From NCBI GenBank assembly GCA_947184155.2, contig CAMXCT020001755.1, positions 62,001 to 126,000 of the forward strand: a DNA stretch of 64,000 nt, given 5' to 3'. The position numbers and the translations under genes were made by a program. This stretch comes from Cladocopium goreaui. Its lineage: Eukaryota > Sar > Dinophyceae > Suessiales > Symbiodiniaceae. Within the stretch, counting starts at the first letter, position 1; every line of letters starts with the position of its first letter. The notes under the pieces are model-generated. The model was given only the letters and a program-made list of their open reading frames with translations, was not told the origin of the DNA and did no database searches. Positions 13,313 to 40,200 of the stretch are shown in pieces.

Positions 13313-14560
13313 GGTCTACTGCTGGCTATTGAACTCGGCCCGAAGCCAACTCATCAGTGAGGCATGGTCCTTCTGCGGTGGTTATGAGGTAGGAGACAAC
13401 CACAAGTGATAAGGGAAAACTCAGAAATGGTTGGTTCCCATAACTGGGGGATCCCCAATGGCTGGATGATTTATAATGGAAAATGGAGGATGATGTAAGA
13501 GTACCCCCATTTTAGGAAACCTCCTGTTGTAAACTAACTTGAACATTTATAGGTTCAGCCTTTGTCTTTGGCAGAAACCTAACTGGGTGCCACATGATCC
13601 ACTGAAAGCTGGATGTCTCTGGTCTCAGAACTGAGAGTTTCCATTCAAGCAGGGGCGTGTTAGAGGGACAAGCTGGCTACAAGCCAGCTCAGATTTATGT
13701 TGGACATATCGTTAGATGTCACAACTTGGGGGGCCCATTGGTGTACGGAATTCCAATTGAATCCCCCCGGAACTGGATAACGGCACCCCTCAGGTGAAGT
13801 TGGCCATGTGTGCTGGTGCCCTGGCTACCTCCGATGATGGAGCTTGGGTTTGCCTCACCAATAAGGAGCTTGGCTTCCGGGATGAGATGAAAGAAGATGT
13901 AGATGTGGACTCCCAGAAGTGGATCCGGTGACTTATTGTTTCGAAAGGAGGACACCCGAAAAGATGATGTTTGAGGGGTAAAGGCGATGGCTTTCTCTAG
14001 TTTTTCCTTTAAATTAATACGAAGCAAAATGGAGGCAACTTCAATGGCGAACATGATGATAGGAGATATGATTCTTGGACAAACCCGTGCGGGATTTTTC
14101 GCGATCACAAGGGAGTTTGAAGAAGCAAACATGGGGATTTTGAGGAACAACAATGCTGGATGAACAAACATCTTGAGATCCATAAAGATGGGGGGTTCAC
14201 CGCGAAAAATTCGCCTGAACTCATCCTGGTTGTGCCACAGGAGACAGGTCATGTGGATGTCTTCATGTGTGGAGACCAAGTGTGGCTCACCTTTGGTGGG
14301 CTGCCATAAAAATAGCCGGACTACCAGGAAATATCCTCTATCAATCTCACATTTTTCCGCGCAGATCCCCGGTATCAACCAAGGTCTGAATTCATCCAGG
14401 CTTTAAATTCCACCGTTTCATCACTTGCAGCCATTTTGGCTCCAGACTTTATTTGAATGTTTCGATAGTGAAGCATCCGGCAGCTGCAACCCCCTGCAGC
14501 CAGCCGGCCATGTGGTTTGGAGGAGATGTCCTTGGCGACACCAAGAAGTACAATGTCAAG
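13313..14560 (+). CDS. Candidate 5' exons, probably of the calpain-like gene
   Basis: Four + strand segments have exon character. 13313-13388 reads VYCWLLNSARSQLISEAWSF followed by CGGYE. 13794-about 13927 begins VKLAMCAGALATSDDGAW. 14155-14279 contains FTAKNSPELILVVPQETGHV. 14508-about 14560 contains PAMWFGGDVLGDTKKYNVK. The first two join in phase across a GT-AG intron (GGYE|VKLAM). ELILVVPQETGHV resembles the [14 protein letters not shown] segment in the later domain III of the calpain gene, which suggests a second C2L-type domain upstream and one gene. Membership in that gene is inferred, and no start codon or signal peptide was identified. Confidence 0.4.
14426..14446 (+). other. Spliced-leader-like segment
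   Basis: AGCCATTTTGGCTC is an exact 14-nt match to the core of the dinoflagellate trans-spliced leader. Over 21 aligned positions 17 match, and the segment ends CCAG where the leader ends CAAG. Spliced-leader remnants in genomic DNA are a known sign of retroposed mRNAs in dinoflagellates. The core is partly self-complementary (AGCCA...TGGCT), so coincidence is possible. Confidence 0.35.
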
Positions 14561-14784
14561 GCACATGGGATATGATGGGGCGATAAGAACAGGTTGGAAT
14601 GCCAAAGGCAGGAGACATTCCATGATTCCCATGATATTCCTATCCTGCATACTTTCCAGCAATCTACCTTGGTGAAAACATGCCATTTGTATCCATTTAT
14701 CTAAGGAAGTTCAGAAGTCAAACTTCCGACAATATGGACAGATGAAAAAGCAGAGGTGGGAAGAGTCAGAGAAGAGAAGAAAAC

Positions 14785-15545
14785 TACCACTACACTACAC
14801 TACACTACTACAAATACAAATATACTACGCTACATTACACTACACTAATTACACTACACTACACTAATTTCATCTATATAATTACACTACACTACACTGA
14901 TTACATTACATCTACAACAACAACTACTACCACAGCTACAACTACAACTACAATACACACTACATTACACTACACTACACTAATTACACTGCAGCACACT
15001 ACAACTACAAATACAAATACAACTACAACTACACTACATTACAGAACACTACACTACACTACATTACATTACATTTCCTTACTTTACAGTACATTGCATT
15101 ACATTACATTACATTGCAACTACAAATACACCTACAACTGCAACTACAACTACCACGAAAACACACTACACTACACTACGCTACACTACACTACGCTACA
15201 CTACAGCTACAACTACATTATTTTACACTACACTACACTGCACTACACTACACTACACTACACTACACTACACCACACTGCACCACACTGCACCACACCA
15301 CACCACACGACACTACACCACACCACACCACACCACACTACACTACACTACACTACGCTACAGTAATACTACACTATACCACGCTACAGCGCACAACACT
15401 ACAGTACACAACGCTACATTACACTTCACTAATTGCACCACACCACAACTAGAACTGCAACTGCAACTACACTGCAGTAACTACACTACATTACAACTAC
15501 TGCTCCACTACACTACACTAGAACTACAACTACAACTGCGCTACA
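14785..15545. repeat. ACTAC satellite
   Basis: A degenerate (ACTAC)n/(ATTAC)n/(CACCA)n array of about 760 bp. Its far end abuts one copy of a 190-bp repeat, and the reverse-complement arrangement appears at 40.0-41.6 kb. Confidence 0.9.
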
Positions 15546-15547
15546 CC

Positions 15548-15740
15548 ACACTACATCCAGCAGTTGTGGTGAGGTGACCACTGCAACCATTGCAACCACC
15601 CCAAAAAACACAACTCCAACCCACTTTCGATCCACGAGTGGGTTCGCTCTGCCATCCATGATTCGCAACAACCAACCTCTTCTATAGGTTTCCTATTTTT
15701 GAAACTTCCGCCACCGCCTTGTGCGGTACGACTGGCAGAA
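15548..15740 (-). mobile_element. Satellite-linked ~190-bp element, copy 1
   Basis: The reverse complement of this segment matches 40015-40200 and 40985-41175. All three share CCAGTxGTACCGCAC at one end, GGTGGTTGGAGTTGT-type sequence internally, and GGTCACCTCACCACAACTGC followed by TGGATGTA at the other end. The ends form a weak inverted repeat (CCAGTAGT / ACTGCTGG). Each copy is fused to a CTAC/GTAG satellite, as expected if element and satellite spread together. Confidence 0.65.
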
Positions 15741-16114: not shown

Positions 16115-19100
16115 CTGCCCGAGGCCGATCCCTTGGGCGACACCAAGGTGGTGGACCGCAGTGCCATGGACCGGGACTTCGATGCCCTGGGGAAGCGGCC
16201 GGGGAAGTCCCAGGCCTTTCCGGGCAACGAGTCCATGACCGCGGCTTGGTGAAGTTGGGTGACATGGTCACATGGGGAAAATCCTAAATCTGAATGGGAA
16301 GAATCCATCCATTTTGGAATAGGTTTTTTTGTTGACCTTAATGTTAGGATTCTAAGTATAAGTATTCGTATGGGATGGATGATCATAAGATATATATAGC
16401 ATATATATATAGCATGTTTTGACACTAGCACGAATGGCTAATGGCTCTCACATCTTGGGGGATGGGGGTCAATTCATTTTCACAGGGATTTACGTTGCCA
16501 TGATGTGTGGATTCCCATGATTGCATGCACGACCATAAGCCATATACCCTCCGGTAATTTGTTGCACTTTGCGAACTCGAAGCCATGGCCCATGAAATGT
16601 TCGATGATTGAGGTATCCCAAATGTGAAATTTCCATAGCAAACTGTGAAATCACCAGAGGGTAACTGGGATTTATGGTGGATTTATTCATGGTTGGGGCT
16701 GTTGACCACCTTATGACCGCACTAGCTGGTGGATATGATTTTGTAATCAGTTGAAATGCTCCCCTGTTTGTATTTGATATTGGGGGACAATAGCAATGAA
16801 CAAGTCTCGTTTTTTTTTTTTAAATATTATCGTCATTATATACTATTACTATTTACTATTGCTAGTTTCTTTGTTTATTTTTGGAATATGAAACATTTTT
16901 TGGTTCATGATCTAAACTTTAGTAAATGGTGGTATTTATAGATCTTTCAAGGAGGGTATGATGATTGAGATTTTGGTATATCCTGTGGATGCGTGAGATT
17001 TCTAACCAGTATCGAAAGGGGCATCTGACCATCACACATGGGGATTCAACTATAAAGTATGTGGATTTCAGAATGAATGATTAAATCATTTGGATTTCAG
17101 AGAGAAACATTAGGATATACATATCAAAAAATTAGCTTCGAAATTAGGATTTCACCATCAATGACTTCAGATTTAATAATCTATAGATAATGGGGATACA
17201 ACCAAGTGGGTAAACCATCAGATGTGTGGTAACCCCAAAAGGATCAGGCAAAGATGGGTATGTGACCATCCATCATGGAGATATATTTCGCAACAGCAGA
17301 GATGATATGACCAACCAACAATCTGAGGCAGGATCCTATCCCAACCTCAAGTCCCGTGTTTATGATAGTTAGGGTTAGGATTTTGGGGAATCATCTCCAA
17401 ATGGCAAGCTTTTCCAGTCTAGGAATGATTGTGGTTAGATGCTAAGCCCAAATATCCACCTGTTGGGTATATTGCTGCCTGGGATATCATGGCTGTACCA
17501 CGAGCTGTAGATGATTTTAGCTATGGAACATCCTTCAGCTCCCGAGGCTCCAAAAGCAAAGGCCCCAGTGAAGACGCCAGAGCCTCCCATTGCGGATGGA
17601 GTGCTCTTTGGCCCTGATGGCATGCCGTTGGACAACAACGCGGTAGTTGAGGAGGACCAGGAAGGACAGCTTCACGCCAAGATCACTTCTCATCAAAAGG
17701 TGGCATCTCGATGCATGTGGGGAATGGGGAAGCAAGGTGATATGAAAGTTGGAGGGTTTTACGTACTGTAGTTACATGAGTTATATGAATATGTATATAT
17801 ATATAGATATCCATTATGTATATACCCACAGTAAAGGAACAACATTATTAACAAATGTATGAATGTAATCATTTTGGACAGCGGGGTTAATTTCTGATCA
17901 AAGAAACCATCCAGCGGCAGTCTTCAGATTGCTTGCATAGCTGACCTTGATAAGGGGATGGTTCAAAACTATCAAACCCACAAACTGGATGGTTTACAGC
18001 AAAAAAAGACCACTTTGGCAGGTCCATTGGGACTCCAGTCCCATACCCACCTCTCCCCTGGTGTTTTGATTCGCCAAGGAATTACATGACCAGGGCTGGT
18101 TCCATGCTGAGAGCAATCGCTATGAGCAAGAAGAACTGGCCAAGATGCACATCCAATCCATCAGCAGCGCGGTGGGTCAGCGACACTTGGCAGTACAACC
18201 AAGGCCACGAGGAGGTTTTCGGTAGATGACTGGCCGGCGCTGGGTCTTGACCTTTGGAGGTTCTGGTGGTGTACTGTCAGTAATTGGAAAACACCCTGGC
18301 CGCTTCCAGGACAGCGAGAGTGGGTAGAACGCGCCAACGGTGGGTCCAAGCACTAGGGGGTCAGTGATTTGGATTTCTGTAAGTTTATCGAAACCGAAAT
18401 CCACAATACAATCAATACAATACAATCAATACAATCAATATAATCAACAAAATCAGTGGAAAAAAACGTGGATTTTCCTCCAAATTTTGAGGTTCTCCAT
18501 GATTTTGCTAAGGAGAAACTGCTGGCAACTGTCGCGATGGGCGCTGGGTGAACAGTCCCCATGAGTTCCCGGACCTGGGTCTCACCGGCACGGTGCTGTC
18601 CAACGCCTTGGTTCCCTTTCCACCCAATGACCAGCAGTACTATGTGGGAGGCAAATATGATCCCGTGTGCCTTGGAGCTGAGCTTGAGATTTCAGGCTAG
18701 ATACCAGGTGCTAACGCTAGCAATTTTGTTGGGATCGTTGAAAATAGCAGTGATGTTCTAGAATTGGTACCACATAGGCTCTTCCGACCAGAGGAGCACT
18801 CTTAATCGGTCAGCCATGTCCCAAGGCATTCGACCTTGTGGCCAATTGCCGTGCCAAATTTTGCGCACAATGGCAACCATGGCCGCAGTGATTCGCGCGA
18901 ATTCTGTAAGAGGTGCTGTTAGAGTTGCCGGATACTGTTGCCACATAAACAGTTTTGGAAACTCAAGTCATCCTTTCTTCTATCCTACAAAACTGGCAGA
19001 AGATGTGCCTTAAAATCCTAAGGATTCAGTCTTTTTCCAGCATTTTGCCACCGTTTGTGGAGCCCCTTGACCCCAACCCCTTTTGGCAACGTTCCGTCGA

Positions 19101-19852
19101 CGTTGAGGTACGTCCAGCAGCACCTGGATCCGGCTGGTGGACTTTGCCCAGCACGCGGATGCGGTGCATCTCTTCGATGAATTCAGCTGCAAGACACACT
19201 GCGGCCGCATCTTACAGGGATCTTTGGACAATGGCGCCCTGGATGACAGGGAAGTCAGGAAGGGGAAATGGTAAATCATTTATACCTGACTTGTTTGGTG
19301 AGGGCCAGATTTTTTTTCAAGAATAGTGGCTTGATTTGGGACACTTGGAATTCTTTGGAAGACACGTATCAGTTGGAAGCATTGAAACCTTTCTGGAAGA
19401 TCATCAGCTGGATTTTCGATGAATCTACTGTTTTAGTTTTTTTTTCCTAAGTCTCAGAAGCTCAAAAAAACAGCATTGCACAGATTCCACCTCGAAGCAT
19501 CATATTTATTGTTCGTACAACTACTGTAGTTACTATAACTATAACCATCCAACTTCATGGCTTATTTGGCTTATTGCCCCATGAGGCTACTTTGTGGAAG
19601 CCTTACAGGCGCCGTGCCGGAGTCGCTCCTGCCAAAGAAAGAGCTGTAGACATAGGTATGATACGTATGTACATGGGTTCATACATTAGACATGTACACA
19701 TACACACATCTGCATATATATATGCATATGTATGTATATGGATGAACAAACTGAACTTGGCCCACAAAACCATACATCACGTATTGCTATATGTAATATT
19801 AAAATTTATATCAGTACTTAGAAATACCAAATATCTTTACTGTAATACCACA

Positions 19853-19884
<32 letters not shown>

Positions 19885-22800
19885 TGTATGCAAATATTAT
19901 ATATAAAAGCTATTTCTACTGCTTGTATCATTCAGCCAGATGCTGCCCGGAAGGCTATTAGCTTGCGACCCAAGTTGGTGAAGCAACTCTTCTATGCCTG
20001 GCAAACCAGACGAAGTATTTACATCGCACGTCTCTTCAAACATGGAACTTGGATGAGGGTGGAGGCTTGGAAAGCTTCGATCGTAGATCTGAAACTCAGA
20101 GTAGTGGACCTTGGAAGGATTTGGTAGGTGCGCGTTGGATGATTCTCGTTGCGAAGGGCAGTCTGTTCTGGTCATTTTTGGGAGTTGGAAACCCGGGTAC
20201 CAAGCGTTTTTGATGCACACGGTCTGCTTTCACTATGTCATATGAAGACATGTGACACAACCAACCCTTCCCCCTCACCGCGCTTGATAATTGACTCTTT
20301 CAGGTGGATGACTTTGTTCCAGTTGGACGGTCTGGGAGAAATGACACTGATGGCAATGTGCCCGTTTGTTGCCGCTCTGAGCACTTTCCCAATGTGACCC
20401 TTGGATGACGGTTCTTCACAACTTGTTTTCGGCTCCTTCAGCGACTTCCAACACTTCCGTCCGAGAAAGTCACACATGTTTTTTCTGCAACTTGCGGTCC
20501 TCCCAACTCGTGTTTTTTCAAGCGAGTGGGTCTAAGCTCAGGGCCAGCTTCATTACATTTGATGAGTTGTGTTTTCATTATCACAGGTGATCACCCACAC
20601 TATTGTCAGTATTCTTCTTCAACTTCCCTCGCCAGGGTTTCTTCCCATTCCCTGAGAATGATCTACACTGACTTTTCAGCCAACATTGGTCAAAAGCCAT
20701 CAGTCAACCTTAAACCAGAAAAGCAGCTCAAGTTTTGGATTTGGCTTAGGATTTGGCCCAGTTTGATTGAGAAAGCCTATGCCAAGATCCACACCCTTCG
20801 TTTCTCCTCGAGTGCCATCACCGAAGACGACATGGGCGGCTGGGAGGCCATTGGTGGCGGTGGCAAGGTGGAGGACGCCCTGGCGGATCTCACGGGGGGC
20901 GTGGCCGGGCGCTTCTACACCAAGGCCCGGGGACTCGGGGACGCAACAGGGAGAAAAATGGTGGTTGGATATGGTTTAATGATGTTTAATGGGGACAGAA
21001 TGGGGATCTAGTGGAAGAAGCAATGGAATATGAATGGGAGATGAGTTGGTAACTATTGGGATTCCTATGAAACACTATAATTTTTTTGGGATCAAAATGG
21101 GATTTCTTCCATCTGCCAACTGCTACAAAATTTCGCAACCATCCACAGTATGTTGATAGTAGATGTTTGAAACATATGAAAGTTGGTGGAGAATTTGTGA
21201 GAACGTTGGAAAGAAAGGGTACTAACAGATGGACTGTAGATTTTTGACAGACATCGCGCGCAGAATGTTTTTGTAACACCAACGTCATGGATATTCTCAG
21301 CAAATACCTCCGATGGAAGCATGCAAGTGCTAACTTGCCTCAAGTTGGAATTTCAACGGAAGGGATTTGGGTCAGTCGGTATACTGCAACTGGAGAAAAA
21401 GGTGTAGGTTAAGACTTTCATACCTCAACCAGTAAGAAAACCAGCCGCGAGGATGTCTCCCCCGACCGACTCTTCATCTACATCTATGACTTGCAGCGCG
21501 ATACCTTGTTCGTGTGCCGGCCCAGCCAAACTCTGTGCGACTTGCAGGGTGTCAGGTGGGGCCACAGAGTGCTTCGAGTTGCAAACCCGCGGTGAGAGTA
21601 TAATCCACCTTGTTTTAGACTGAAACAAGGTACGGAACGCTAGGAAGCCGACCACTCCATCTGTGATTTCTTTCTGCACCGCTTGCAAGACAAAATCAAA
21701 GAACCAACTGTTTCACCAAACACTTTCTTTTTACAAGCCTGCTGCCACCTTTCGAAAGAAACATCAAAGACCCTGGAGGTTGAACCCCTACTATCCCTAT
21801 GCAGTGAACCGCGCCGTGCAATGGGAGGGTGGCTTGTACTACCAGGTCTTCTGTGGTGGTCCCGGGGTCCATGATGGAGGTCTTGAGGACATCACAGTGC
21901 CGTACAGCCTATCGCACTGCGAGAAGTTTCCTGAGAAGCGCGAGGATGGATTCTTTTGGCTCAGCGCGGAGGACATGGGTGTGAAAATGGAAAGTCAATG
22001 GAAAGTCTACCAGTCTACCCAGTCTACCCCCAAATAAATATGGCCATTCCAATTGGGGAAAATCGGTCAACTGAGGATGGAAAGGGGGTACCCTATTTTG
22101 ATGGGTCAATAGCTATGGGACCACGGGAATGGGGGATGGACATCCACAACGCCCAGCCTTTTTGAGATCACACACCAGAATACCAGAGTTTTTGATCACA
22201 TCTATGTCACATTCTCCACTGCTTGATGAGAAACAATGGGTAACCCTCCCAATTTCTCCCAATTCTTGACAAGCAATAGGTAAGTGATGGAATTGGAATG
22301 ATGAGGACACAAACAGGTTGCCCCTTGCAAACTGGCCCTGCTGCTTTTTCAAAAAGGACATACAGAAGCTGTTTGGTGTTTATGTTAAAACTATGCCCCA
22401 TATTTTCAGGTAGCTAACCCCTCAGAGCATTCACCACAAGCTGTGGCTTCATTTCCCAAGATGGTGAGAATCCAATCTACATTTTCGTTTTCATCCACTG
22501 TGTCTTTCTTCCAAGCTTGTCTCCACCAGTAGACAACTCTCTCAATGGTGGATCCATGGAAATCCTATGAATCGGAGATTTCGAGGACTTCCATGAATAC
22601 TTCGGCACCATCTTCGAATGTCGCCTCGTGAACTCCGGTGACGTCTCCCTCCCCGAGATGCCACCGCCGCGCTTCGACGTCATTCGGCCGCCGGCCACAG
22701 AGATGTCGCTGATGGCTAGTGGCATGCTGTCCACGGGGATGCCGATGGCCACAGCGATCCCGGGAATGACGGAGTCACCCCACCACTCTGAGATGATGGA

Positions 22801-23580
22801 TGGGGAGGAGATTCAACGGAGAGGTTGGGAAAGTTGGATTTGTTGGGGTGGTTGGATGGTGGTTGGATGGTGGTTGGATGATGGTATGGGGGGGGAGTCT
22901 TTTTTTTGAGTTTGGAATCTTCCAGCGAGCGTTGGATGGCACATGTTCTGCGCATGTTCTGCAGGTGTTCAACACGTGGGGCCCGATGGGCAGCCGTTGG
23001 CTTGGTACGAGTGGATCTATGCCAACCCTGGAGAAGTGGTGCGCATGAATGAGCCGGAATTCGTGATTTCGGTGCCACAACATGCCGTGCCCTGCGAGGT
23101 TTGAAGGGGGGAGGAGCAATTGCTCGAGTTTTTGCCGGAGTTGCTCTGTTTGAGTATGAACCATCCGGGGTTGTCCCAACAGAAGGTACCCTAAAATCCA
23201 GTGGGTATATCATGATTTTCCCAATGAACATTTGTACTCTAAGCTGGCTTGAAAATCACCACCAAAGAATCGAATCCCGATTTTTTCGCCGACCTCCGAC
23301 CGCCTTAAATACACACAAAAATAATTCATAGAGTATTTCCCAGCTGATCAACAGGAGGTATACCTGTACTATACGCCCATGGCTGATAGGTGGTATGTTC
23401 CATTGAGCAATTCGATCCTCGAATGCTCATGAAGAGGCCTGGCAGGCGAGGTGCGGAAATTCAATCCGTGTGTTGGTGCTGCTGCAGATGTCTACAGATA
23501 GATTTGGATAGGGATAGAAACTAAAAAAATCATATACATATCTATATAATCCCATGTAATTACGCACAGATATAATCATG

Positions 23581-23611
<31 letters not shown>

Positions 23612-26600
23612 CATACATACATGCATACATGCATACATGCATACATGCATACATGCATACATGCATACATGCATACATATGCATACATATGCATACATAT
23701 GCATACATATGCATACATATGCATACATATGCATACATATGCATACATATACATATACATATGCATACATATGCATACATATGCATACATATGCATACAT
23801 ATGCATACATATGCATACATATGCATACATATGCATACATATGCATACATATGCATACATATGCATACATATGCATACATATGCATACATATGCCTACAT
23901 ATGCGTACATATACGTACATATACGTACATATACGTACATATACGTACATATACGTACATATACGTACATACATATACATACATATACATACATATACAT
24001 ACATATACATACATATACATACATATACATACATATACATACATATATACATACATATACATACATATACATACATATACATACATATACATACTTATAC
24101 ATACATATACATACATATACATACATATACATACATATACATACATATACATACATATACATACATATACATACATATACATACATATACATACACATAT
24201 ACATACATATACATACATATACATACATATACATACATATACATACATATACATACATATCATATACATATACATACATATACATACATATACATACATA
24301 TACATACATATACATACATATACATACAATACATACATACATATACATACATATACATACATATACATACATATACATACATACATACATACATATACAT
24401 ACATATACATACATATACATACATATACATACATATACATACATATACATACATATACATACATATACATACATTACATATACATACATATACATACATA
24501 TACATACATATACATACATACATACATATACATACCATTACATACATATTACATACCATTACATACCATTACATACCATTACATACCATTACATACCATT
24601 ACATACCATTACATACCATTACATACCATTACATACCATTACATACCATTACATACATTCATACATTCATACATACATACATACATATATATATATATAT
24701 ATGTAGATTAATATATACAGAATACATATTACATATGTATTATGTACGGAGAAAAAAATGGATCGATCAATCGAGCCGGGCCACTGCCCAGGCCCGAGGC
24801 GGTGCCGATCCTTTGCAAGGTCTATGAGAAAGTGGACGGGGAGAACCTCTACAGCCACTGGGGCAATGGCGAATCCACCAGTTTCCACCAGTTTCCTTCC
24901 GATTTGATGAATTCACTACTTAATTTGGGAATCTTCTGGGTCGGAATCCGTGATTTTTCTGGGATTTTCTGGCGATGTGGAGATTGACATTGACCTGCAA
25001 ACATGGGGATCTCAGCAACAAAGGATGGTTCTTGGGGCTTATGTCGCTGAGGTTCATGGGGAATCACTATGGGAACTAACCATCAGAAACGATTCGTTCA
25101 CTTGGTAAACCTAGAGACGCCATCATGAGATCCAAGATGCCGTCTACTTATGGAGATTCTCCACAGGCACTCCATGGTGAATGACCCGAGCTGTTTTGCA
25201 TGTCTGGAAGGTGTAACTAACCGGCTGGATCGCAAGAAAGTTTGGGCACCTGCTAGGCCCCCCCAGCAAAAGTGTGCGGGTTTCCAAAAATAGCAGATAT
25301 CACCCAACCAATGCATAGCATCTGGGTGATTTATTCTAGGAGTGGGAACCCATCTTGCTTGGGACCCTTGCTCAAACTCTGATGAAGCTCCATCCATTTG
25401 TGGGGCCACTCAACCAACAAAAAACATCAGAATTGCTGAAAGACCCTCGTTAGTATAGGCTATTTATCCTATTTCTGAGTTCAGGGTGGGTGGCTCACCC
25501 ACAGTACTTTGTTTTGGTCGGCAACTCCATTTTCTTTACGTTTAGACCCAAATTATTTGATTCTTCCCCAATCTTTCGTTAAATCACTCAATTTTTTTGT
25601 GCTGAAACCTCCAGTGCTGCAGGTGAACCTCTATTTGGCGGTGAACATCTCCATGTTCTCTTGGTAATCTCCCCATGATATATCTCAGTTACCATGAATA
25701 TTTGATGAAAGTGAATTGTCAATGGTTAAACCTCTCCAGATATTGTTGTTTGAAGGTCAAATCCCCCAAATCCAAATATCACTGCTGGTTAAATCCAAAT
25801 ACATATTCTTGATTAGATACATTGGATTGTTCTTTTTTTTAATGTCCAACAATTTTCCCCAATTTGTTCATATTTTTTCCGCAATTTGTTCCATCTTCCA
25901 CCGGCGTTTCGCAAGGCGATCAGCTGGTGTGCCGTTCCAACTGGCTCCCCGTGCGGGACTCCATGGTGGCCTTCTCCGTGAACCGGGGCGGGGAGTATCT
26001 CATCGTGGCAGAATTGCCCCAGGAAACCAGTCATGTGGAGAGGATGATCTTCAGGCGAGGGGGGGGGTTTGGGGCCAAGTGGGATGCTGGCCAATGGGTC
26101 ATTGCATGTCGTATATATATAATCATATCTATATAGACATGATATTACTATATGTATATAATATAATTATATATATATATATACATACATACATACATAC
26201 ATATGTTTGTGTTTCAAAAAGTCTTTTGGAATGACGTTGGATGATTCTTTTTGGTGCCTGTCCTGCTGGTTAGTGGCTTTCCAAGAAAGTTTTCGACCAT
26301 CTTCAGCATGATGATCCGAAATGACTTTCATATTTTTCTGGCGCTTTGTAAAGCCGCCAATCAGATATTTGTAAACCATTCATTTCGGGTGGGTTTACAT
26401 ACCTTCAGTCAATGCTTATACATTTGTGCAGGTGTTATGCCTCCCAACCCTACGTCATGGTGGCCGCCCATCGAATGACCCGGAGACATTTGCTGGCCAA
26501 GCCAGTGAAGCTTCCAGGTGGGGCACCCGCCACAATTGGAACGATTTGACTATTTGACCAACAGAAATTGATAGGTTTGGATGGATTCTTATTTAATTTA

Positions 26601-27985
26601 TAGGATTGGGTAGCCCCATTTTTTTTCATGGAAACTCAAACATTTGCCATTGAACCGACCTTTTTGTTTTTCCCTGTGGCCCTATAATACAGAATCTGAC
26701 GAAATCCAAATCCTGGTGTTTCACCCAGACATTTTCCATTCTTTCAAACATCCAGGTGCCTCCAAGTTGAGCTTCGTGGGGCTCATGGAACCCGCTGGCT
26801 TCGATAAGGACAAACCGGTGCCCCTGGACTGGGACTACGACGCCATGCGCAAGGCGGTCTTTGACCTGGACACGGGCTGGAACGCCTTGGTACGAGAAGT
26901 ACAGGAGGATTGCGCCATCATGTGAGGTCGTCCAGCGGATGTGTATGATTATATATATATACATATTACATTTTACATGTCATCGTTGAACATTATACAA
27001 ACAAATATTATTGATGATTATATGTAATATATGCATAGACTTATATACATAAGAAATATAGGTACATATGTGTAGATTTCTCAACGGAAAGAATCACCAT
27101 CACATGGGTTGGAATCACTCAACTAAGGATGGATTGGTTGGACTTTGTTCCATCCAAACATGGGCAACAATGAAGTTGTATCCTCCATTAGTGGGGATAC
27201 TATACAATCCGTATATCTGTTTCTTCAATTTTAGATATGTTCTGTTTTACATCCAACAAATGGAATGATCCCAAAATGGGTTGAAAGCAGCAGCCAGAAC
27301 ACTATACGTACTCTGATTTGTTTCAACTTATAATCTGCACACGACATCCACGGATTCATGTAGTCCAGCGCTGGAATGACAGAAATTCCGCTTACGGAGA
27401 AGAACACATCCCTTGGGGCGACCACTCATGCACCCTGGCAGCCCAAAGGGCAGCCCTGGCCCCGCTAGAACAAAGCCAGACGAGACGCGCATTTCGAGAT
27501 GAAGAAATGTGGAGATGAAGACTGTTGCCAAACTCGGGAAGACTTTGAAGCCAGAACAAACTTGTGGGTCAAATTGTTAAGGCCCTGGGACCCAAAGATA
27601 TTGTTAATAATGGTGGGGGTACCTAATTTTGACCCATACCACGCTCAAGAACAGGCCGCTCACCTGCACGCATCAAATAGGTGTACTTGGGGCCCTGAGG
27701 GTCGCGGTTCCTGGTAGCAAATCATTTGTTGCTTTGTATGCAAGTGTTTTTCACCCTTCAGGATAAACAAATCCATACTTTCCCTGTACTGAAGTAGAAC
27801 CATCTTCAGTGGCATTGTAGCTCTCAAGCTCAACGCTAAGGCTGGACCAGGCAGCTCATCAACAGGCCAGATTGTCTTACAAGAAAGCCAGCCAGCTGGT
27901 CAACAAGAGGCTCGGATGCCGGCATGATCGCGGCAACATGGTCAACGTCTCTTTTTTGGGCGACCTAGGTTTTTCTCATTATTGA
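16115..27985 (+). CDS. Calpain-family protein (catalytic-fold plus domain III), probable pseudoprotease
   Basis: Approximate exons: 16115-16248, 17539-17699, 18094-18174, 18513-18666, 19118-19270, 19936-20058, 20304-20393, 20750-20960, 21437-21555, 21779-21973, 22579-22772, 22965-23098, 24799-24880, 25615-25663, 25916-26054, 26432-26517, 26756-26921, 27383-27508, 27841-27968+. Calpain landmarks in order are [60 protein letters not shown] with ECRLVN, then domain III ([40 protein letters not shown]). Where calpains have GHAYS and RNPWG this protein has [16 protein letters not shown] and YQVFCGGPG. No Cys-Trp was found after [12 protein letters not shown]. The active-site His and Asn therefore look lost. 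A TGA at 26923 is probably bypassed: GTGAGG just before it is a strong donor, and the next two exons join in phase. The frame ends at 27985 at the latest if no further exon follows. Function is probably regulatory or scaffolding in the cytosol. Confidence 0.8.
16531..16663. mobile_element. Introner-like inverted-repeat element, intronic copy
   Basis: The left end TACCCTCCGGTAATTT (16545-16560) is matched by AAATCACCAGAGGGTA at 16648-16663 in inverted orientation. Internally it carries GAAGCCATGGCCCAT, GTTCGATGATT and TTTCCATAGCAAACTGT. Related copies lie at 47.39, 57.82 and 60.69 kb. This one sits in an intron of the calpain gene. Confidence 0.65.
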
Positions 27986-28350
27986 AATTAACATGTGATG
28001 AAGAATGCGGTAAGCCAGCAGAAAGACAAGCGATCCCAGGGGTATACCAACTGAGGATGATTTGCTATTGGCTTTACATTGGCTGCAACTTTAGTTGAAC
28101 CAGGTATGGAGGAAGTGGACCCTCGCAATTGGCCATTTGCATTCTGATGTCGATTTTCCAACCTACGCTCTGGTAATCAAACGTGGCAATGGAACATCGA
28201 TAATATATATATATATATGATATATGATATATATATGTATGATATATATATATATATGTATGATATACACATATATATGTTTGATATATATATATATATG
28301 TTTGATGTATATATATATATATATTTATGATACACACATATATATATATA
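22941..28350. repeat. Duplicated segment, copy A
   Basis: This segment is almost identical to 30618-about 36190. I noticed only about eight single-base differences outside microsatellites (for example at 25081, 25464, about 26385 and about 26404) plus length changes in T and TA runs. It carries the calpain gene from the start of its domain III exons to its end. The internal CATA microsatellite is the only strongly different part. Copy B begins exactly at the end of the assembly gap. Confidence 0.95.
23578..24700. repeat. CATA-type microsatellite in copy A
   Basis: About 1.1 kb of (CATA)n, (CATATG)n, (CATATACATA)n and (TTACATACCA)n blocks lies inside the intron between the 22965 and 24799 exons. 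The long open frames in all phases are an effect of the repeat and are not genes. Confidence 0.95.
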
Positions 28351-28357
28351 TGATACA
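28200..28357. repeat. TA/GATA microsatellite at the retroelement junction
   Basis: A TATATATGATATA-type tract is shared with copy B (36062-36230). Copy A leaves the shared sequence within this tract and enters the retroelement, which marks the probable insertion point. Confidence 0.85.
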
Positions 28358-28583
28358 TGCAAATAGAGTGTAAGCTACGGACCAATGTACATTATCACAT
28401 AACTCACTCTAAGACTCGAAGCCAAAGGGTTGTGACAATCGCCCTTTTGGCTCAAGACCCACTGCAGCAACAGGGAAAAGGAACGCCATGCGGAAGCTGT
28501 CGTCGTTGTGAAGCCATCACTGGAACAACAAACATCAACATCAATTACTGGAATATAATCGGACAGGCAATCCCCGATTTGCA
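28358..28583 (+). mobile_element. Candidate 5' LTR of a retroelement
   Basis: Sequence between the microsatellite breakpoint and a putative primer-binding site begins TGCAAATAGAG and ends GATTTGCA, giving TG...CA ends over about 226 bp. The other LTR would lie beyond the gap, so the boundaries cannot be verified. A spliced-leader-like segment lies within it (28436-28456). Confidence 0.4.
28436..28456 (+). other. Spliced-leader-like segment in the retroelement leader
   Basis: TTTTGGCTCAAG is an exact 12-nt match to the 3' end of the dinoflagellate spliced leader, and 17 of 21 aligned positions match overall. It points in the direction of the downstream ORF, 186 bp ahead of its start codon. 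Confidence 0.4.
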
Positions 28584-28641: not shown

Positions 28642-30517
28642 ATGACTGAACAGGATAGCAGCGATAATGCATTTTCTTTCTCTGGACATGCCGTTGCACC
28701 AGCTGCCGGCACGCAGTCAAATTCTTCACAGGGTATAGACACTGGTGGAAGCGATGCCTCAGAACTGAGAACAAGCCAACCCAGGCGACATCTGGTTGCT
28801 CCTAGAGGGAGACAAATTTCGACAATGCAAGCAATTGAAGATAGGGACAGCACACCTGGAAAGAGAAGATCATCTGCACGACAATTGTCGCCTCCGATGA
28901 CTCCAAGGACTAAGGCAAAGACTACGTCGTCGAATCCGCCTTCACCGATTCAGGACGCTACTCCATCAGGGACAGGATCTTATCAGCAAGTGAACGCCCC
29001 GTCAAGTGGTAGCGACATCTTCACTGCCTATCAGAGTGAGTTAGCAGAATACAAGACATCACTGGAGAGGGCCACTGAAGAAGAATCCGTACTTCAGGCA
29101 AGATTGAGCGAGACGACAGCATATGCCTATCAACAATTTAATTTCCTGGAAAGCACCACTCATCAAGAGATGATGTCGATGACCGAACAACTCCAGATGC
29201 TGAACTTCGAGTTACAGGCTGCACAACAGGAAGATGAAGGTGCGACCTACAGGATCGAAGAGTTGGAAAGGTATCAGACTATGTCGAATGAAGCTGCATC
29301 TCATTTGAAATTCAAATATTCACGACTACGTTCGGAATTCGATGAACAAATGGGACAAGCAAACGCAATTATGGTACATGTGGGAACTGACGCGAATGCT
29401 CACATCAATCAACTCAGACTGGAACTGGAAAACGCAGAGATGAATGCCAAGCAAGAAGCTCTAGCAGTCGGCTATGCTAATGACCAAACATGTGCTTTGC
29501 AGATCGAGATGCTCGAGGTTGCCAATCAGAAACAGACGATGAAGCACACCATGGCCATGAATGTCAGGCGACTGGAAACTGAGTTAGATGCTGCTGACAT
29601 GAAGAGGGACGAGATCATGAAGGAGTTCCGTAGTAACATAAGATCTGAACATGACCGTTATGCAGAATGTGAACATCACTTAGCTTTGGAAGAATCACAG
29701 CTTCGATTACAGGTGATCCACAGTGAGAACTTACAATCTCGACTAGCGATTTCTGAGAACAGGGTTTCTGAAGAATCTCTAGCTGAATCAGGCGGCATGC
29801 GGGACATGAGGATAATGGGACTACGTTCTGAACTACACATGAAACAAAGTCTTTTAGATCGAATGCAACAACAACTGACTGAATCGAAGAATCAGTATCA
29901 TGAACTTTCATGCCAACAAGCCAGAAGAGCCAGAAGATCATCACCAAGCAGATCACCGCATGGAGGACCTCTCTATGAGATGTACATGCAAGCCGTGCGT
30001 GAACGTGACAGCTTGAAGGAATCTAAGGCTGAGGTTGACAAGTTGTACTTGCAGAATAGATCTGAACTCATTGACACTGAGGACCTGCTCAAAGTCTTCC
30101 AGCGAAACTTTGATGAAACTGGTAAGAAATATCAAGATGCTCTGAACAAGATCGATCACATGAGCAACAATCCGAATGTGACGAGTACCTTGTTTGACAG
30201 TTTGCACAATGAACTCAATGACAGGGATACAGCTATTGCTCGCCTTCATACTGAACTTGAAGCCCAAAAGGACTCTCTTGAGCGTGCTCACAGGGATGCA
30301 GGTAAGTCCATCAAGATGTTGAACGACAGAAGACTCGTGATCAAAGGTGCGACTGACTATTCCATTCCCGAAAGCCATTTGACCGAGATGCATCAACTGG
30401 CCAATGAGCGTTACGCTGAGGTAGAAGAAATGACGAGTACCATTGCAGCCCTGAAATTGGAAAACCAAGCTCATTCTTCTTCATCAAAGAATAGACCGAC
30501 TACGTTACATGGGTACC
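28642..30517 (+). CDS. Coiled-coil gag-like ORF of a retroelement, truncated by the gap
   Basis: An intronless frame of about 625 codons starts at the first ATG after the candidate primer-binding site and runs open into the 100-N gap. Residues 1-125 are Ser/Thr/Pro-rich with basic patches. About 125-425 and 450-620 are heptad-like, Glu/Gln/Leu/Met-rich coiled coil. Between them is a basic RS-type linker (about 430-445, RARRSSPSRSPHGG). Codon use is A-rich (GAA, CAA, AGA), unlike the GC3-rich exons of the two host genes. No zinc knuckle, protease or reverse transcriptase is visible; those would lie in or beyond the gap. The lack of introns and the leader layout favour a Copia-like retrotransposon gag. 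A host single-exon coiled-coil protein is the alternative. Confidence 0.55.
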
Positions 30518-30617
30518 NNNNNNNNNNNNNNNNNNNNNNNNNNNNNNNNNNNNNNNNNNNNNNNNNNNNNNNNNNNNNNNNNNNNNNNNNNNNNNNNNNN
30601 NNNNNNNNNNNNNNNNN
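30518..30617. other. Assembly gap of exactly 100 N
   Basis: One hundred N bases, a common placeholder for a gap of unknown length. The left flank is the middle of the retroelement ORF, and the right flank is the start of duplicated copy B. Any open frame reading across it is not real. Confidence 0.99.
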
Positions 30618-30640
30618 CATGTTCTGCGCATGTTCTGCAG

Positions 30641-31256
30641 GTGTTCAACACGTGGGGCCCGATGGGCAGCCGTTGGCTTGGTACGAGTGGATCTATGCCA
30701 ACCCTGGAGAAGTGGTGCGCATGAATGAGCCGGAATTCGTGATTTCGGTGCCACAACATGCCGTGCCCTGCGAGGTTTGAAGGGGGGAGGAGCAATTGCT
30801 CGAGTTTTTGCCGGAGTTGCTCTGTTTGAGTATGAACCATCCGGGGTTGTCCCAACAGAAGGTACCCTAAAATCCAGTGGGTATATCATGATTTTCCCAA
30901 TGAACATTTGTACTCTAAGCTGGCTTGAAAATCACCACCAAAGAATCGAATCCCGATTTTTTCGCCGACCTCCGACCGCCTTAAATACACACAAAAATAA
31001 TTCATAGAGTATTTCCCAGCTGATCAACAGGAGGTATACCTGTACTATACGCCCATGGCTGATAGGTGGTATGTTCCATTGAGCAATTCGATCCTCGAAT
31101 GCTCATGAAGAGGCCTGGCAGGCGAGGTGCGGAAATTCAATCCGTGTGTTGGTGCTGCTGCAGATGTCTACAGATAGATTTGGATAGGGATAGAAACTAA
31201 AAAAATCATATACATATCTATATAATCCCATGTAATTACGCACAGATATAATCATG

Positions 31257-31287
<31 letters not shown>

Positions 31288-34200
31288 CATACATACATGC
31301 ATACATGCATACATGCATACATGCATACATGCATACATGCATACATGCATACATATGCATACATATGCATACATATGCATACATATGCATACATATGCAT
31401 ACATATGCATACATATGCATACATATACATATACATATGCATACATATGCATACATATGCATACATATGCATACATATGCATACATATGCATACATATGC
31501 ATACATATGCATACATATGCATACATATGCATACATATGCATACATATGCATACATATGCATACATATGCCTACATATGCGTACATATACGTACATATAC
31601 GTACATATACGTACATATACGTACATATACGTACATATACGTACATACATATACATACATATACATACATATACATACATATACATACATATACATACAT
31701 ATACATACATATACATACATATACATACATATACATACATATACATACATATACATACATATACATACTTATACATACATATACATACATATACATACAT
31801 ATACATACATATACATACATATACATACATATACATACATATACATACATATACATACATATACATGCATATACATGCATATACATACATATACATACAT
31901 ATACATACATATACATACATATACATACATATACATACATATCCATACATATACATACATATACATACATATACATACATATACATACATATACATACAT
32001 ATACATAAATATACATACATATACATACATATACATACATATACATACATATACATACATATACATACATATACATACATATACATACATATACATACAT
32101 ATACATACATATACATACATATACATACATATACATACATATACATATAAAAAAAAAAAAACATATTAAAATAATATTACATATTACACATACATACATA
32201 CATACATTCAATACATACATACATACATACATACATACATACATACATACATACATACATACATACATACATACATACATACATACATACATACATACAT
32301 ACACATACATACACATATAGATACATATATATACATGTAGATACATATAGATACATATACATACATATACATACATATAGATACATATACATACATACAT
32401 ATACATACCATTACATACCATTACATACCATTACATACCATTACATACCATTACATACCATTACATACCATTACATACCATTACATACCATTACATACCA
32501 TTACATACCATTACATACATTCATACATTCATACATACATACATACATATATATATATATATATGTAGATTAATATATACAGAATACATATTACATATGT
32601 ATTATGTACGGAGAAAAAAATGGATCGATCAATCGAGCCGGGCCACTGCCCAGGCCCGAGGCGGTGCCGATCCTTTGCAAGGTCTATGAGAAAGTGGACG
32701 GGGAGAACCTCTACAGCCACTGGGGCAATGGCGAATCCACCAGTTTCCACCAGTTTCCTTCCGATTTGATGAATTCACTACTTAATTTGGGAATCTTCTG
32801 GGTCGGAATCCGTGATTTTTCTGGGATTTTCTGGCGATGTGGAGATTGACATTGACCTGCAAACATGGGGATCTCAGCAACAAAGGATGGTTCTTGGGGC
32901 TTATGTCGCTGAGGTTCATGGGGAATCACTATGGGAACTAACAATCAGAAACGATTCGTTCACTTGGTAAACCTAGAGACGCCATCATGAGATCCAAGAT
33001 GCCGTCTACTTATGGAGATTCTCCACAGGCACTCCATGGTGAATGACCCGAGCTGTTTTGCATGTCTGGAAGGTGTAACTAACCGGCTGGATCGCAAGAA
33101 AGTTTGGGCACCTGCTAGGCCCCCCCAGCAAAAGTGTGCGGGTTTCCAAAAATAGCAGATATCACCCAACCAATGCATAGCATCTGGGTGATTTATTCTA
33201 GGAGTGGGAACCCATCTTGCTTGGGACCCTTGCTCAAACTCTGATGAAGCTCCATCCATTTGTGGGGCCACTCAACCAACAAAAAACATCAGAATTGCTG
33301 AAAGACCCTCGTTAGTATAGGCTATCTATCCTATTTCTGAGTTCAGGGTGGGTGGCTCACCCACAGTACTTTGTTTTGGTCGGCAACTCCATTTTCTTTA
33401 CGTTTAGACCCAAATTATTTGATTCTTCCCCAATCTTTCGTTAAATCACTCAATTTTTTTGTGCTGAAACCTCCAGTGCTGCAGGTGAACCTCTATTTGG
33501 CGGTGAACATCTCCATGTTCTCTTGGTAATCTCCCCATGATATATCTCAGTTACCATGAATATTTGATGAAAGTGAATTGTCAATGGTTAAACCTCTCCA
33601 GATATTGTTGTTTGAAGGTCAAATCCCCCAAATCCAAATATCACTGCTGGTTAAATCCAAATACATATTCTTGATTAGATACATTGGATTGTTCTTTTTT
33701 TAATGTCCAACAATTTTCCCCAATTTGTTCATATTTTTTCCGCAATTTGTTCCATCTTCCACCGGCGTTTCGCAAGGCGATCAGCTGGTGTGCCGTTCCA
33801 ACTGGCTCCCCGTGCGGGACTCCATGGTGGCCTTCTCCGTGAACCGGGGCGGGGAGTATCTCATCGTGGCAGAATTGCCCCAGGAAACCAGTCATGTGGA
33901 GAGGATGATCTTCAGGCGAGGGGGGGGGTTTGGGGCCAAGTGGGATGCTGGCCAATGGGTCATTGCATGTCGTATATATATATATATATAATCATATCTA
34001 TATAGACATGATATTACTATATGTATATAATATAATTATATATATATACATACATACATACATATGTTTGTGTTTCAAAAAGTCTTTTGGAATGACGTTG
34101 GATGATTCTTTTTGGTGCCTGTCCTGCTGGTTAGTGGCTTTCCAAGAAAGTTTTCGACCATCTTCAGCATGATGATCCGAAATGACTTTCATATTTTTCT

Positions 34201-35846
34201 GGCGCTTTGTAAAGCCGCCAATCAGATATTTGTAAACCATTCATCTCGGGTGGGTTTACATAGCTTCAGTCAATGCTTATACATTTGTGCAGGTGTTATG
34301 CCTCCCAACCCTACGTCATGGTGGCCGCCCATCGAATGACCCGGAGACATTTGCTGGCCAAGCCAGTGAAGCTTCCAGGTGGGGCACCCGCCACAATTGG
34401 AACGATTTGACTATTTGACCAACAGAAATTGATAGGTTTGGATGGATTCTTATTTAATTTATAGGATTGGGTAGCCCCATTTTTTTTCATGGAAACTCAA
34501 ACATTTGCCATTGAACCGACCTTTTTGTTTTTCCCTGTGGCCCTATAATACAGAATCTGACGAAATCCAAATCCTGGTGTTTCACCCAGACATTTTCCAT
34601 TCTTTCAAACATCCAGGTGCCTCCAAGTTGAGCTTCGTGGGGCTCATGGAACCCGCTGGCTTCGATAAGGACAAACCGGTGCCCCTGGACTGGGACTACG
34701 ACGCCATGCGCAAGGCGGTCTTTGACCTGGACACGGGCTGGAACGCCTTGGTACGAGAAGTACAGGAGGATTGCGCCATCATGTGAGGTCGTCCAGCGGA
34801 TGTGTATGATTATATATATATACATATTACATTTTACATGTCATCGTTGAACATTATACAAACAAATATTATTGATGATTATATGTAATATATGCATAGA
34901 CTTATATACATAAGAAATATAGGTACATATGTGTAGATTTCTCAACGGAAAGAATCACCATCACATGGGTTGGAATCACTCAACTAAGGATGGATTGGTT
35001 GGACTTTGTTCCATCCAAACATGGGCAACAATGAAGTTGTATCCTCCATTAGTGGGGATACTATACAATCCGTATATCTGTTTCTTCAATTTTAGATATG
35101 TTCTGTTTTACATCCAACAAATGGAATGATCCCAAAATGGGTTGAAAGCAGCAGCCAGAACACTATACGTACTCTGATTTGTTTCAACTTATAATCTGCA
35201 CACGACATCCACGGATTCATGTAGTCCAGCGCTGGAATGACAGAAATTCCGCTTACGGAGAAGAACACATCCCTTGGGGCGACCACTCATGCACCCTGGC
35301 AGCCCAAAGGGCAGCCCTGGCCCCGCTAGAACAAAGCCAGACGAGACGCGCATTTCGAGATGAAGAAATGTGGAGATGAAGACTGTTGCCAAACTCGGGA
35401 AGACTTTGAAGCCAGAACAAACTTGTGGGTCAAATTGTTAAGGCCCTGGGACCCAAAGATATTGTTAATAATGGTGGGGGTACCTAATTTTGACCCATAC
35501 CACGCTCAAGAACAGGCCGCTCACCTGCACGCATCAAATAGGTGTACTTGGGGCCCTGAGGGTCGCGGTTCCTGGTAGCAAATCATTTGTTGCTTTGTAT
35601 GCAAGTGTTTTTCACCCTTCAGGATAAACAAATCCATACTTTCCCTGTACTGAAGTAGAACCATCTTCAGTGGCGTTGTAGCTCTCAAGCTCAACGCTAA
35701 GGCTGGACCAGGCAGCTCATCAACAGGCCAGATTGTCTTACAAGAAAGCCAGCCAGCTGGTCAACAAGAGGCTCGGATGCCGGCATGATCGCGGCAACAT
35801 GGTCAACGTCTCTTTTTTGGGCGACCTAGGTTTTTCTCATTATTGA
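30641..35846 (+). CDS. Calpain-like gene, 3' part in duplicated copy B
   Basis: Exons match copy A: 30641-30774, 32661-32742, 33477-33525, 33777-33915, 34293-34378, 34617-34782, 35244-35369, 35702-35829+. The encoded protein segment covers domain III and the C-terminal helical region, with no evident change in reading frame from copy A. The catalytic-fold exons are absent because the copy starts at the gap. The TGA at 34784-34786 is probably skipped by use of the GTGAGG donor, as in copy A. If this is the alternative haplotype it is the allele of the first gene; if it is a true duplication it is a 5'-truncated copy. Confidence 0.75.
31254..32560. repeat. CATA-type microsatellite in copy B
   Basis: About 1.3 kb, starting and ending like the copy A tract. 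Internally it has a longer (CATACATATA)n block, an A(12) run at about 32149 and a pure (CATA)n block at 32189-32300. Expansion differs from copy A while the flanks are nearly identical. Confidence 0.95.
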
Positions 35847-36061
35847 AATTAACATGTGATGAAGAATGCGGTAAGCCAGCAGAAAGACAAGCGATCCCAG
35901 GGGTATACCAACTGAGGATGATTTGCTATTGGCTTTACATTGGCTGCAACTTTAGTTGAACCAGGTATGGAGGAAGTGGACCCTCGCAATTGGCCATTTG
36001 CATTCTGATGTCGATTTTCCAACCTACGCTCTCGTAATCAAACGTGGCAATGGAACATCGA

Positions 36062-39000
36062 TAATATATATATGATATATGATATATATATATATATGTA
36101 TGATATATATATATGTACGATATACACATATATATGTTTGATATATATATATGTTTGATGTATATATATATATATTTATGATACACATATATATATGATA
36201 CACACATATATATATGATATACATGATATATATATGATATATATGATATATATGATATATATCATATATATGATATATATGATATATATGATATACATAT
36301 ATGATATATATATGATATACATACATACATACATACATACATACATACATACATACATACATACATACATACATACATACATACATACATACATACATAC
36401 ATACATACCATTAACATACATACTACATACATACATACATACATACATACATACATACATACATACATACATACATACATACATACATACATACATACAT
36501 ACATACATACATACATACATACATACATACATACATACATACATACATACAACATACATACATACATACATACATACATACATACATACATACATACATA
36601 CATACATACATACATACATACATACATACATACATACATACATACATACATACTTACATTACATTACATTACATTACATTACATTACATTACATTACATT
36701 ACATACATTACATACATTACATACATTACATACATTACATACATTACATACATTACATACATTACATACATTACATACATTACATACATTACATACATCA
36801 CATACATTACATACATTACATACATTACATACATGACATACATTACATACATTACATACATTACATACATCACATACATTACATACATTACATACATTAC
36901 ATACATTACATACATTACATACATTACATACATTACATACATTACATACATTACATACATTACATACATTACATACATTACATACATTACATACATTACA
37001 TACATTCATACATTACATACATTACATACATTACATACATTACATACATTACATACATTACATACATTACATACATTACATACATTACATACATTACATA
37101 CATTACATACATAGATGCATAGATACATAGATACATAGATACATACATACAGACAGACTGACAGACTGACAGACTGACAGACTGACAGACTGACAGACTG
37201 ACAGACTGAGAGACTGAGAGACTGAGAGACTGAGAGACAATACATACAATACATACAATACATACATTACATACATTACATACATACGTTACATACGTTA
37301 CATACATTACATACATTACATACATTACATACATTACATGCATTACATACATTACATACATTACATACATTACATACATTACATGCATTACATACATTAC
37401 ATACATTACATACATTACATACATTACATACATTACATACATTACATACATTACATACATTACATACATTACATACATTACATACATTACATACATTACA
37501 TACATTACATACATTACATACATTACGTACATTACATACACTACGTACATTACATACATTACGTACATTACATACATTACGTACATTACGTACATTACAT
37601 ACATTACATACATTACATACATTACGTACATTACGTACATTACATACATTACATACATTACATACATTACATACATTACATACATTACATACATTACATA
37701 CATTACATACATTACATACATTACATACATTACATACATTACATACATTACATACATTACATACATTACATACACTACATACATTACATACACTACATAC
37801 ATTACATACATTACATACATTACATACATTACATACATTACATACATTACATACATTACATACATTACATACATTACATACATTACATACATTACATACA
37901 TTACATACATTACATACATTACATACATTTCATACATTACATACATTACATACATTACATACATTACATACATTACATACCATACATACCATACATACCA
38001 TACATACCATACATACCATACATACCATACATACCATACATACCATACATACCATACATACCATACATACTATACATACCATACATACCATACATACATA
38101 CATACCATACATACATACATACCATACAAACATACCATACAAACATACCATGCATACATACCATGCATACATACCATACATACCATACATACCATACATA
38201 CCATACATACATACATACATACATACATGCATACATGCATACATGCATACATGCATACATGCATACATGCATACATGCATACATGCATACATGCATACAT
38301 GCATACAGACACACATACAGACATACAGACATACAGACATACAGACATGCATACATGCATACATGCATACATGCATACAGACACACATACAGACATACAG
38401 ACATGCATACATGCATACATGCATACATGCATACAGACACACATACAGACATACAGACATGCATACATGCATACATGCATACATGCCATACATGCCATGC
38501 CATACCCTACCCTACCCTACCCTACCCTACCCTACCCTACCCTACCCTACCTACCTACCTACATACATACAGACAGACAGACAGACATACATACATACCA
38601 TATATATATATACACATACATACCATATACATACCATATACATACATACATACATTACATTACATTACATCACATCACATCACATCACATCACATTACAT
38701 TACATTACATTACATACATACATACATACATACATACAATACCGTTACCATACCATACCATACCATACATTGGATACATTACATTAGTTACATACATTAC
38801 ATTAATTACATACATTCCATTCCATTCCATTCCACTCCATTCCATTCCATTCCATTCCATTACATTACATTACATTACATTACATACATACATTAATTAC
38901 ATACAAACATACATACAGACCGACAGTCAGACAGACAGACGGACAGACAGACAGACAGACATACAGACATACAGACACACAGACATACAGACATACATAC

Positions 39001-39190
39001 GTACGGACATACATACGTACATACATACATACGTACACACATACATTCATTCATTCATTCATTCATTCATACATACATACATACATACATACATACACAC
39101 ACACAGACACACTCAGACACACACACAGATATACATAGATACATCCATACATCCATCCATCCATCCATCCATCCATCCATCCATACACAC
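36062..39190. repeat. Three-kilobase compound microsatellite field
   Basis: Successive blocks: (TATATGA)n to 36318; (CATA)n to about 36650; (ATTAC)n; (ATTACATAC)n at 36700-37110; (ACAGACTG)n at about 37150-37240; (ATTACATAC)n to 37978; (CATAC)n; (CATGCATA)n; (CAGACATA)n; (CCCTA)n at about 38504-38550; CATTA, CATCA and CATTC pentamers; (CAGA)n; (CATT)n; (CATC)n to 39190. All long open frames here are repeat artefacts. Confidence 0.95.
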
Positions 39191-39194
39191 ACGT

Positions 39195-40014: not shown

Positions 40015-40200
40015 ACTACCAGTAGTACCGCACAAGGAGGTGGTGGAAGTTTCAAGAATTGGAAACCTACAGGAGAGGTTGCTTGTTGTGAATCACGGAT
40101 TGCAGAGCGAATCCACTGATGGACCGGTGGTTGGAGTTGTGTTTTTCGGAGTGGTTGCAGTGATTGCAGTGGTCACCTCACCACAACTGCTGGATGTAGT
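40015..40200 (+). mobile_element. Satellite-linked ~190-bp element, copy 2
   Basis: Same element as at 15548-15740 (inverted) and 40985-41175. It starts at CCAGTAGTACCGCACAAGG and ends CACAACTGCTGGATGTAG, directly joined to a GTAGT satellite. Confidence 0.7.

Follow-up and report, generated by a model that had tools for sequence, protein, structure and literature searches.

A likely pseudoprotease gene of the calpain fold, with a diverged paralog, in the dinoflagellate Cladocopium goreaui

The locus and its calpain core

A 64,000-nucleotide stretch of the Cladocopium goreaui genome (contig C1755:62001-126000; hereafter the window, whose own positions are used below) carries a calpain-like gene on its forward strand, which probably spans about 17607 to 26925. 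We analyzed this gene against the genome as a whole (1.17 gigabases in 6202 contigs) and found a diverged second copy on contig C6159. The gene is likely to encode a dinoflagellate pseudoprotease of the calpain fold, one of two paralogs that both lack the catalytic Cys, His and Asn. An earlier note, made from the letters of the window, had placed a calpain-family gene with a degenerate triad at 19118..22772. The peptides that it quoted were found on the forward strand in calpain order, two of them as joins across introns; its gene limits were too narrow, with a further block upstream at 17607 and coding-like exons as far as 26925.

The core of the gene (19118-22823) consists of the joined exons A to G. 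In two joins it scored as Peptidase_C2 (PF00648) at 55.2 and 53.4 bits, with expect values (E) of 7.3e-15 for the draft join and 2.6e-14 for the later one, against a curated cut-off of 23.8 bits; the core of the paralog scored 63.3 bits. A phmmer search with the draft core matched calpain-1 in the PDB (E 1.4e-5), and a profile of the window and paralog cores matched calpain-5 (E 5.7e-11) and calpain-1 (E 3.4e-10).

Exon A (19118..19253; start approximate) has a Gly at the place of the nucleophile Cys and ends at a GT donor; its counterpart in the paralog is HLGRVFPGHLEN[M]YLVEALN. Exon B (19954..20064; GC donor as modelled) is matched by AVSLRPKLARQLF and RRAVYILSLFKNGIWMKVE, exon C (20304..20395; GA donor as modelled) by DDYVPVVGGEPLCCR (E 0.03), and exon D (20750..20924) lies within the PF00648 stretch. 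Exon E (21452..21555; GT donor, start set by hand) pairs with VSPDRLFLYIYTLQSDTLFVC. Exon F (21779..21971; GA donor as modelled) contains LNPY[Y] and corresponds to the part of the paralog with NRA and GVHDGGLSD. Exon G (22586..22823; GT donor) holds the core end and a Pro/Met-rich linker, and its start was set by hand from EDFHAYFETIIECRL of the paralog. The F/G junction was corrected to a GA donor with an AG/GAC acceptor, which gives a 13-residue peptide, as in the intronless paralog exon FFWLTIEDFHAYF. The spliced segment assigned earlier to the place of GHAYS is present, but had been read with three residues too many (16). A mini-exon at about 19611-19648 was left out, since the paralog runs from LVEALN directly into AVSLRP. 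Intron donors of the GT, GC and GA types fit a dinoflagellate. The dinoflagellate spliced leader, as a 21-mer, occurred in 172 exact copies in the genome (81 forward, 91 reverse), and its reversed control in none.

Loss of the catalytic triad in two paralogs

An active calpain has Cys in QGxxGDCW, His in GHAYS and Asn in RNPWG. In the window core, Gly replaces Cys in the nucleophile motif (QGSLDN[G]AL), Tyr replaces His in the His motif (NPY[Y]PYAV), and F or C, depending on the register, takes the Asn place. No triad residue stands at its place, as the earlier note had described. Judged by sequence, the gene falls within the calpain fold family and does not qualify as an active calpain peptidase (family C2). 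Extra exons carrying Cys-Trp, His and Asn had been named as the observation that would overturn this description. Three-frame scans, which were made at the DNA level and for motifs only, so that a strongly altered exon would escape them, yielded a single Cys-like match (LTCL, meaningless) and no CW at 19100-20010, no His-like motif at 21400-22600, and four Asn-like matches at 20900-23100, none of them with NPW. Reading exon E through its GT donor (12 residues, then a stop) produced a His/Asn look-alike, which was rejected because its H-to-N distance is only seven residues.

A genome search with the spliced core returned the seven window exons and three places on contig C6159 (E 1.1e-4, 0.0014 and 0.04); the alignment at the third of these contains a stop. 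The paralog exons follow the order of the window gene on this one contig (about 234458-263411), and the matches are therefore more than chance. The whole core was needed to find the paralog; exons F and G alone retrieved only the window itself. The nucleophile motif of the paralog, PGHLEN[M]YLVEALN, lies whole within one open stretch, about 190 base pairs (bp) from the next exon block; its His region reads CASHVINRA and its Asn region QIFSADVSGVHDGGLSD. By register, its triad places hold M, A or C, and S or F. As read from the two sequences, the loss of the triad is common to both paralogs, and the replacing residues differ.

The joined cores are 57% identical (61% over 208 columns of the tree alignment described below). 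Like the window gene, the paralog has ordered core exons, no triad, the motif GVHDGGLxD and a C-terminal CRSNW(L/I)P(V/T)RD(S/A)MVAF; unlike it, it has exon B split in two, no F/G intron and no exon M found, a search within 120 kb around the paralog giving no in-frame counterpart of that exon at E 0.01. The earlier proposal of a conserved replacement segment holds in part: NRA and GVHDGGLxD occur in both paralogs, whereas LNPYYPYAV and SLSHC are confined to the window gene, and the paralog reads AVPLEL next to its GVHDGGLSD. Across 12 ungapped blocks totalling 184 codons, the two copies have an amino acid identity of 70%, with proportions of synonymous and non-synonymous differences (pS and pN) of 0.71 and 0.22, and 35 of 60 fourfold sites differ. 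The corresponding substitution rates are dS 2.26 and dN 0.26, and the resulting dN/dS of about 0.11 is evidence of past constraint and against simple decay, but not a precise ratio.

The genome contains at least 62 places that match PF00648, read here as 45 loci. Their triads were surveyed with a profile built from five intact genes of the same genome, and sites with fewer than 7 of 11 surrounding columns filled were skipped. In the other calpain exons covering each site, Cys was kept in 22/26, His in 28/29 and Asn in 37/38, second copies included; when those copies (L004, L008, L036, L039, L051, L053 and L056, judged by matching scores) were removed in a recount by hand, the figures were 19/22, 24/25 and 30/31. 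The survey favours intact genes: neither the window gene nor its paralog belongs to the 62 places. One locus, L006 (C1029:69201-70058), has all three triad residues replaced (A, W, L). It resembles the window gene in having lost the whole triad on a calpain fold and is the best tblastn match of the window core outside the paralog (37%, E 0.0014), but differs in its uninterrupted 905-residue frame, its Calpain_III domain and a weak match to FAP42 in the PDB (E 0.0045). Partial losses were also seen: Val stands at the Cys place in L038 and in its copy L039, which keep Asn, and Ala stands there in L044, which keeps Asn and His. A tree was built from the pair and 20 of the 45 loci, 22 calpains in all, after removal of the seven second copies and of every row shorter than 150 residues. 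In it, the window gene and its paralog were joined at 100/100, and L006 did not group with them.

Remainder of the gene and its surroundings

Upstream of the core, a 12-residue block at 17607..17642, whose ends are unfixed and which is unjoined to exon A, matches FGPDGEPLEHNA of the paralog (E 0.006); FGPDGEPLEHNA likewise lies upstream of the paralog core, so that the order is conserved. Downstream, again on the forward strand, exon H (22965..23098) has a weak paralog match, LPYMETLFANPGRVI (E 0.07), and exon I (23355..23420) was drawn from an open frame and in-phase splice signals only, with no paralog support. Exon J (24799..24870) weakly matches IPLIMKVYESL of the paralog (E 0.5, partly by eye), and a possible short exon J2 (25623..25663), of uncertain frame, was drawn from splice signals only. 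Exon K (25916..26054; GC donor) is matched by MVCRSNWIPTRDAMVAF of the paralog (E 2.2e-8). Exon L (26432..26517) has no paralog support, its phases fitting K and M, and exon M (26756..26925) ends in a stop or, if the gene continues, in an overlapping GTGAGG donor; both were drawn from splice signals and an open frame only. Exons A to J, as modelled, give one open frame, with the GVR/LNPYY junction in phase, which is consistency and not proof, as the exons were selected as open; exons K, L and M form another.

A 591-residue model with a forced J2-K join showed no match to Calpain_III (CBSW, PF01067) at E up to 10, and DUF1935 was matched neither by this model (E up to 10) nor by the draft N-terminal join. 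The C-terminal part had no Pfam match, and its PDB search produced nothing beyond a chance match (E 0.54). Pfam scans of the draft N- and C-terminal joins were uninformative; a Dynein_heavy match (E 0.11) fell below its cut-off and was rejected.

The gene's 3′ part, together with the region downstream of it, is doubled (22942-28365 and 30618-36210). In three stretches compared, the copies are 99.8-100% identical outside microsatellites, and overall they are 95% identical. The second copy starts right after 100 N (30518-30617), and a scaffold or haplotype duplication is therefore likely; a recent tandem duplication is possible. Between the copies, a 625-residue frame (28642-30516), open from an ATG and coiled-coil-like by eye, runs into the N gap; the open frame at 28648-30516 had no Pfam match at E 0.01. 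At 14432-14445 and 28443-28456 we found matches, each with one mismatch, to the end of the spliced leader, where chance would give a mean of 0.04; they may be leftover leaders from transcripts that were retroposed. Of eight open stretches scanned, three, at 51164-57565, match the N- and C-terminal domains of glycosyl hydrolase family 81 (E 4.8e-12 to 1.9e-13), so that a gene of this family lies further downstream, and the open stretch at 60932-61309 matches the F5/8 type C domain (E 3.3e-8). Microsatellite and simple-repeat tracts at 14746-15577, 23550-24827, 36159-39383 and 40178-41725 produce long open frames that are not genes.

Interpretation and comparison with known calpains

Taken together, the absence of the triad from both paralogs, the open core frame and the constraint in the aligned blocks suggest that a pseudoprotease has been kept for a non-catalytic role. 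The pseudo-calpain gene is probably genuine and retained, and its paralog is old. The pseudoprotease proposed by the earlier note is the best reading; the single conserved replacement that went with it is unsupported. Such a protein would be unable to cut peptide bonds. As the triad is lost while the fold is retained, it would serve for binding or as a scaffold, by means of its core and the C-terminal region that follows. Its most likely setting would be the flagellar axoneme, solely by analogy with androglobin and FAP42. We consider it doubtful that the pair represents an old two-gene dinoflagellate family in which the catalytic loop was rebuilt around a conserved GVHDGGLxD and the rebuilt cleft holds a binding partner, which might be part of the flagellar central apparatus; a family regarded as quick to lose duplicates would then have kept two non-redundant members here. 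A triad-less pair with a common motif offers a handle, in that the shared block can be altered apart from the fold.

Several observations weigh against a kept pseudoprotease. The exon borders were chosen by hand for openness and phase and involve GT, GC and GA donors; the donor chosen for exon A leaves the window copy one residue short in the nucleophile helix; and the joined paralog core omits stretches that could not be placed. Neither J nor J2 joins K in the conserved frame of K, so an exon was missed or misdrawn between J and K and the C-terminal part is incomplete. With dS saturated and blocks picked for alignability, dN/dS is biased low, and it averages over the time since duplication, which is compatible with a recent decay of one copy. 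Lastly, the tree leaves the pair unplaced among calpains, with its deep forks open, and warns of a meeting of long branches (L030 with the window gene).

The best surviving alternative, although unlikely, is that the gene encodes the androglobin (Adgb) of dinoflagellates, a relative of a C1b/C1f subunit in the ciliary central apparatus. Adgb homologs include a supported Dinophyceae group and occur in flagellated lineages (PMC13331133), and non-metazoan Adgb has a calpain-like domain with no globin identified, except for choanoflagellate models that resemble the metazoan form (PMC13331133). Tetrahymena Adgb was located in C1b/C1f (PMC8175508). Because dinoflagellate Adgb is without globin and the Tetrahymena protein belongs to the ciliary central apparatus, androglobin is the most specific candidate. 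Against it, the 591-residue model had no match to the Androglobin II, IV and V Pfam domains at E up to 10, domains that are mostly opisthokont (PMC13331133). A genome search with PF22069 found nothing, but neither did it in any control, and the search for Androglobin_IV is hence uninformative. The long C-terminal helix is not seen in exons H to M (an incomplete model, whose last exon may continue). Dinophyceae fall in a second Adgb group, apart from human Adgb, though weakly (bootstrap 49; PMC13331133), and Adgb duplicates are rare and recent (PMC13331133), whereas the present pair is old. L006, with full triad loss in the same genome, is an equally good Adgb candidate, and in the literature searched we found nothing said about the triad in dinoflagellate Adgb. 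If the pair proved Adgb-like, it would bear on the claim that this ciliary family keeps no duplicates.

It is improbable that an active calpain ancestor gave rise to a window copy now drifting towards a pseudogene. The triad places vary freely between the copies, and the shortened nucleophile helix of the window copy would fit such decay. However, the core stands in one open frame (its exons having been selected for openness), the low dN/dS in the alignable blocks argues against decay, and the triad is missing from the paralog as well, so that its loss is probably old.

We regard it as very unlikely that the protein is still an active protease whose triad has moved to non-canonical places. This has been proposed for brown algal calpains, which are reported to have a Cys at a more amino-terminal place (PMC13413365). 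Both paralogs share a Cys upstream of the nucleophile place (FSC/KMC), and also CCR in exon C, the His of GVHDGG and the His of DFHxYF. The upstream Cys, however, is 15 residues from the nucleophile place in the window gene and 23 in the paralog, a spacing that is not conserved, and Asn is not kept at its place, unlike in most brown algal sequences (PMC13413365). Least probable of all is an artefact of exon choice, with a real transcript that has Cys, His and Asn exons: the non-canonical donors do make exon calls uncertain, and exon A could contain an internal GA donor, but the motif scan for rescue exons was negative and the paralog has Met at the Cys place in a motif that no intron interrupts.

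The likely calpain-fold pseudoprotease of the window has several known systems beside it. No account of a triad-less calpain in dinoflagellates was found in the literature searched, which is no proof of absence; 44 calpain homologues are reported in Symbiodinium minutum (PMC4631099). Androglobin and calpamodulin are named as non-peptidase calpains (PMC4631099), and for trypanosomatid calpains both structural roles and missing triad residues have been discussed (PMC7912814). FAP42, a structural axonemal protein from the Chlamydomonas central apparatus (PDB 7n6g, 7sqc), carries a calpain-like domain (PMC8175508); the window-paralog profile did not match it in the PDB at E up to 10, though it is present in the library. 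Androglobin is like the window gene in its calpain-like domain with the active-site Cys and His replaced (PMC4631099), and dinoflagellate forms lack globin (PMC13331133). A calpain-like domain whose Cys is replaced, which the window core also shows, is a trait common to other non-peptidase calpains. The differences seen are that neither an Androglobin Pfam match nor the long C-terminal helix was found in the window model, and that the window gene has an old duplicate. Calpamodulin and the trypanosomatid calpain-like proteins likewise combine a calpain core with replaced triad residues and are deemed non-peptidases or structural, but belong to other lineages with other domain sets, the window protein having no DUF1935 or Calpain_III match. 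Non-peptidase calpains are already well known, and in kind this dinoflagellate pair is an ordinary member of their company.
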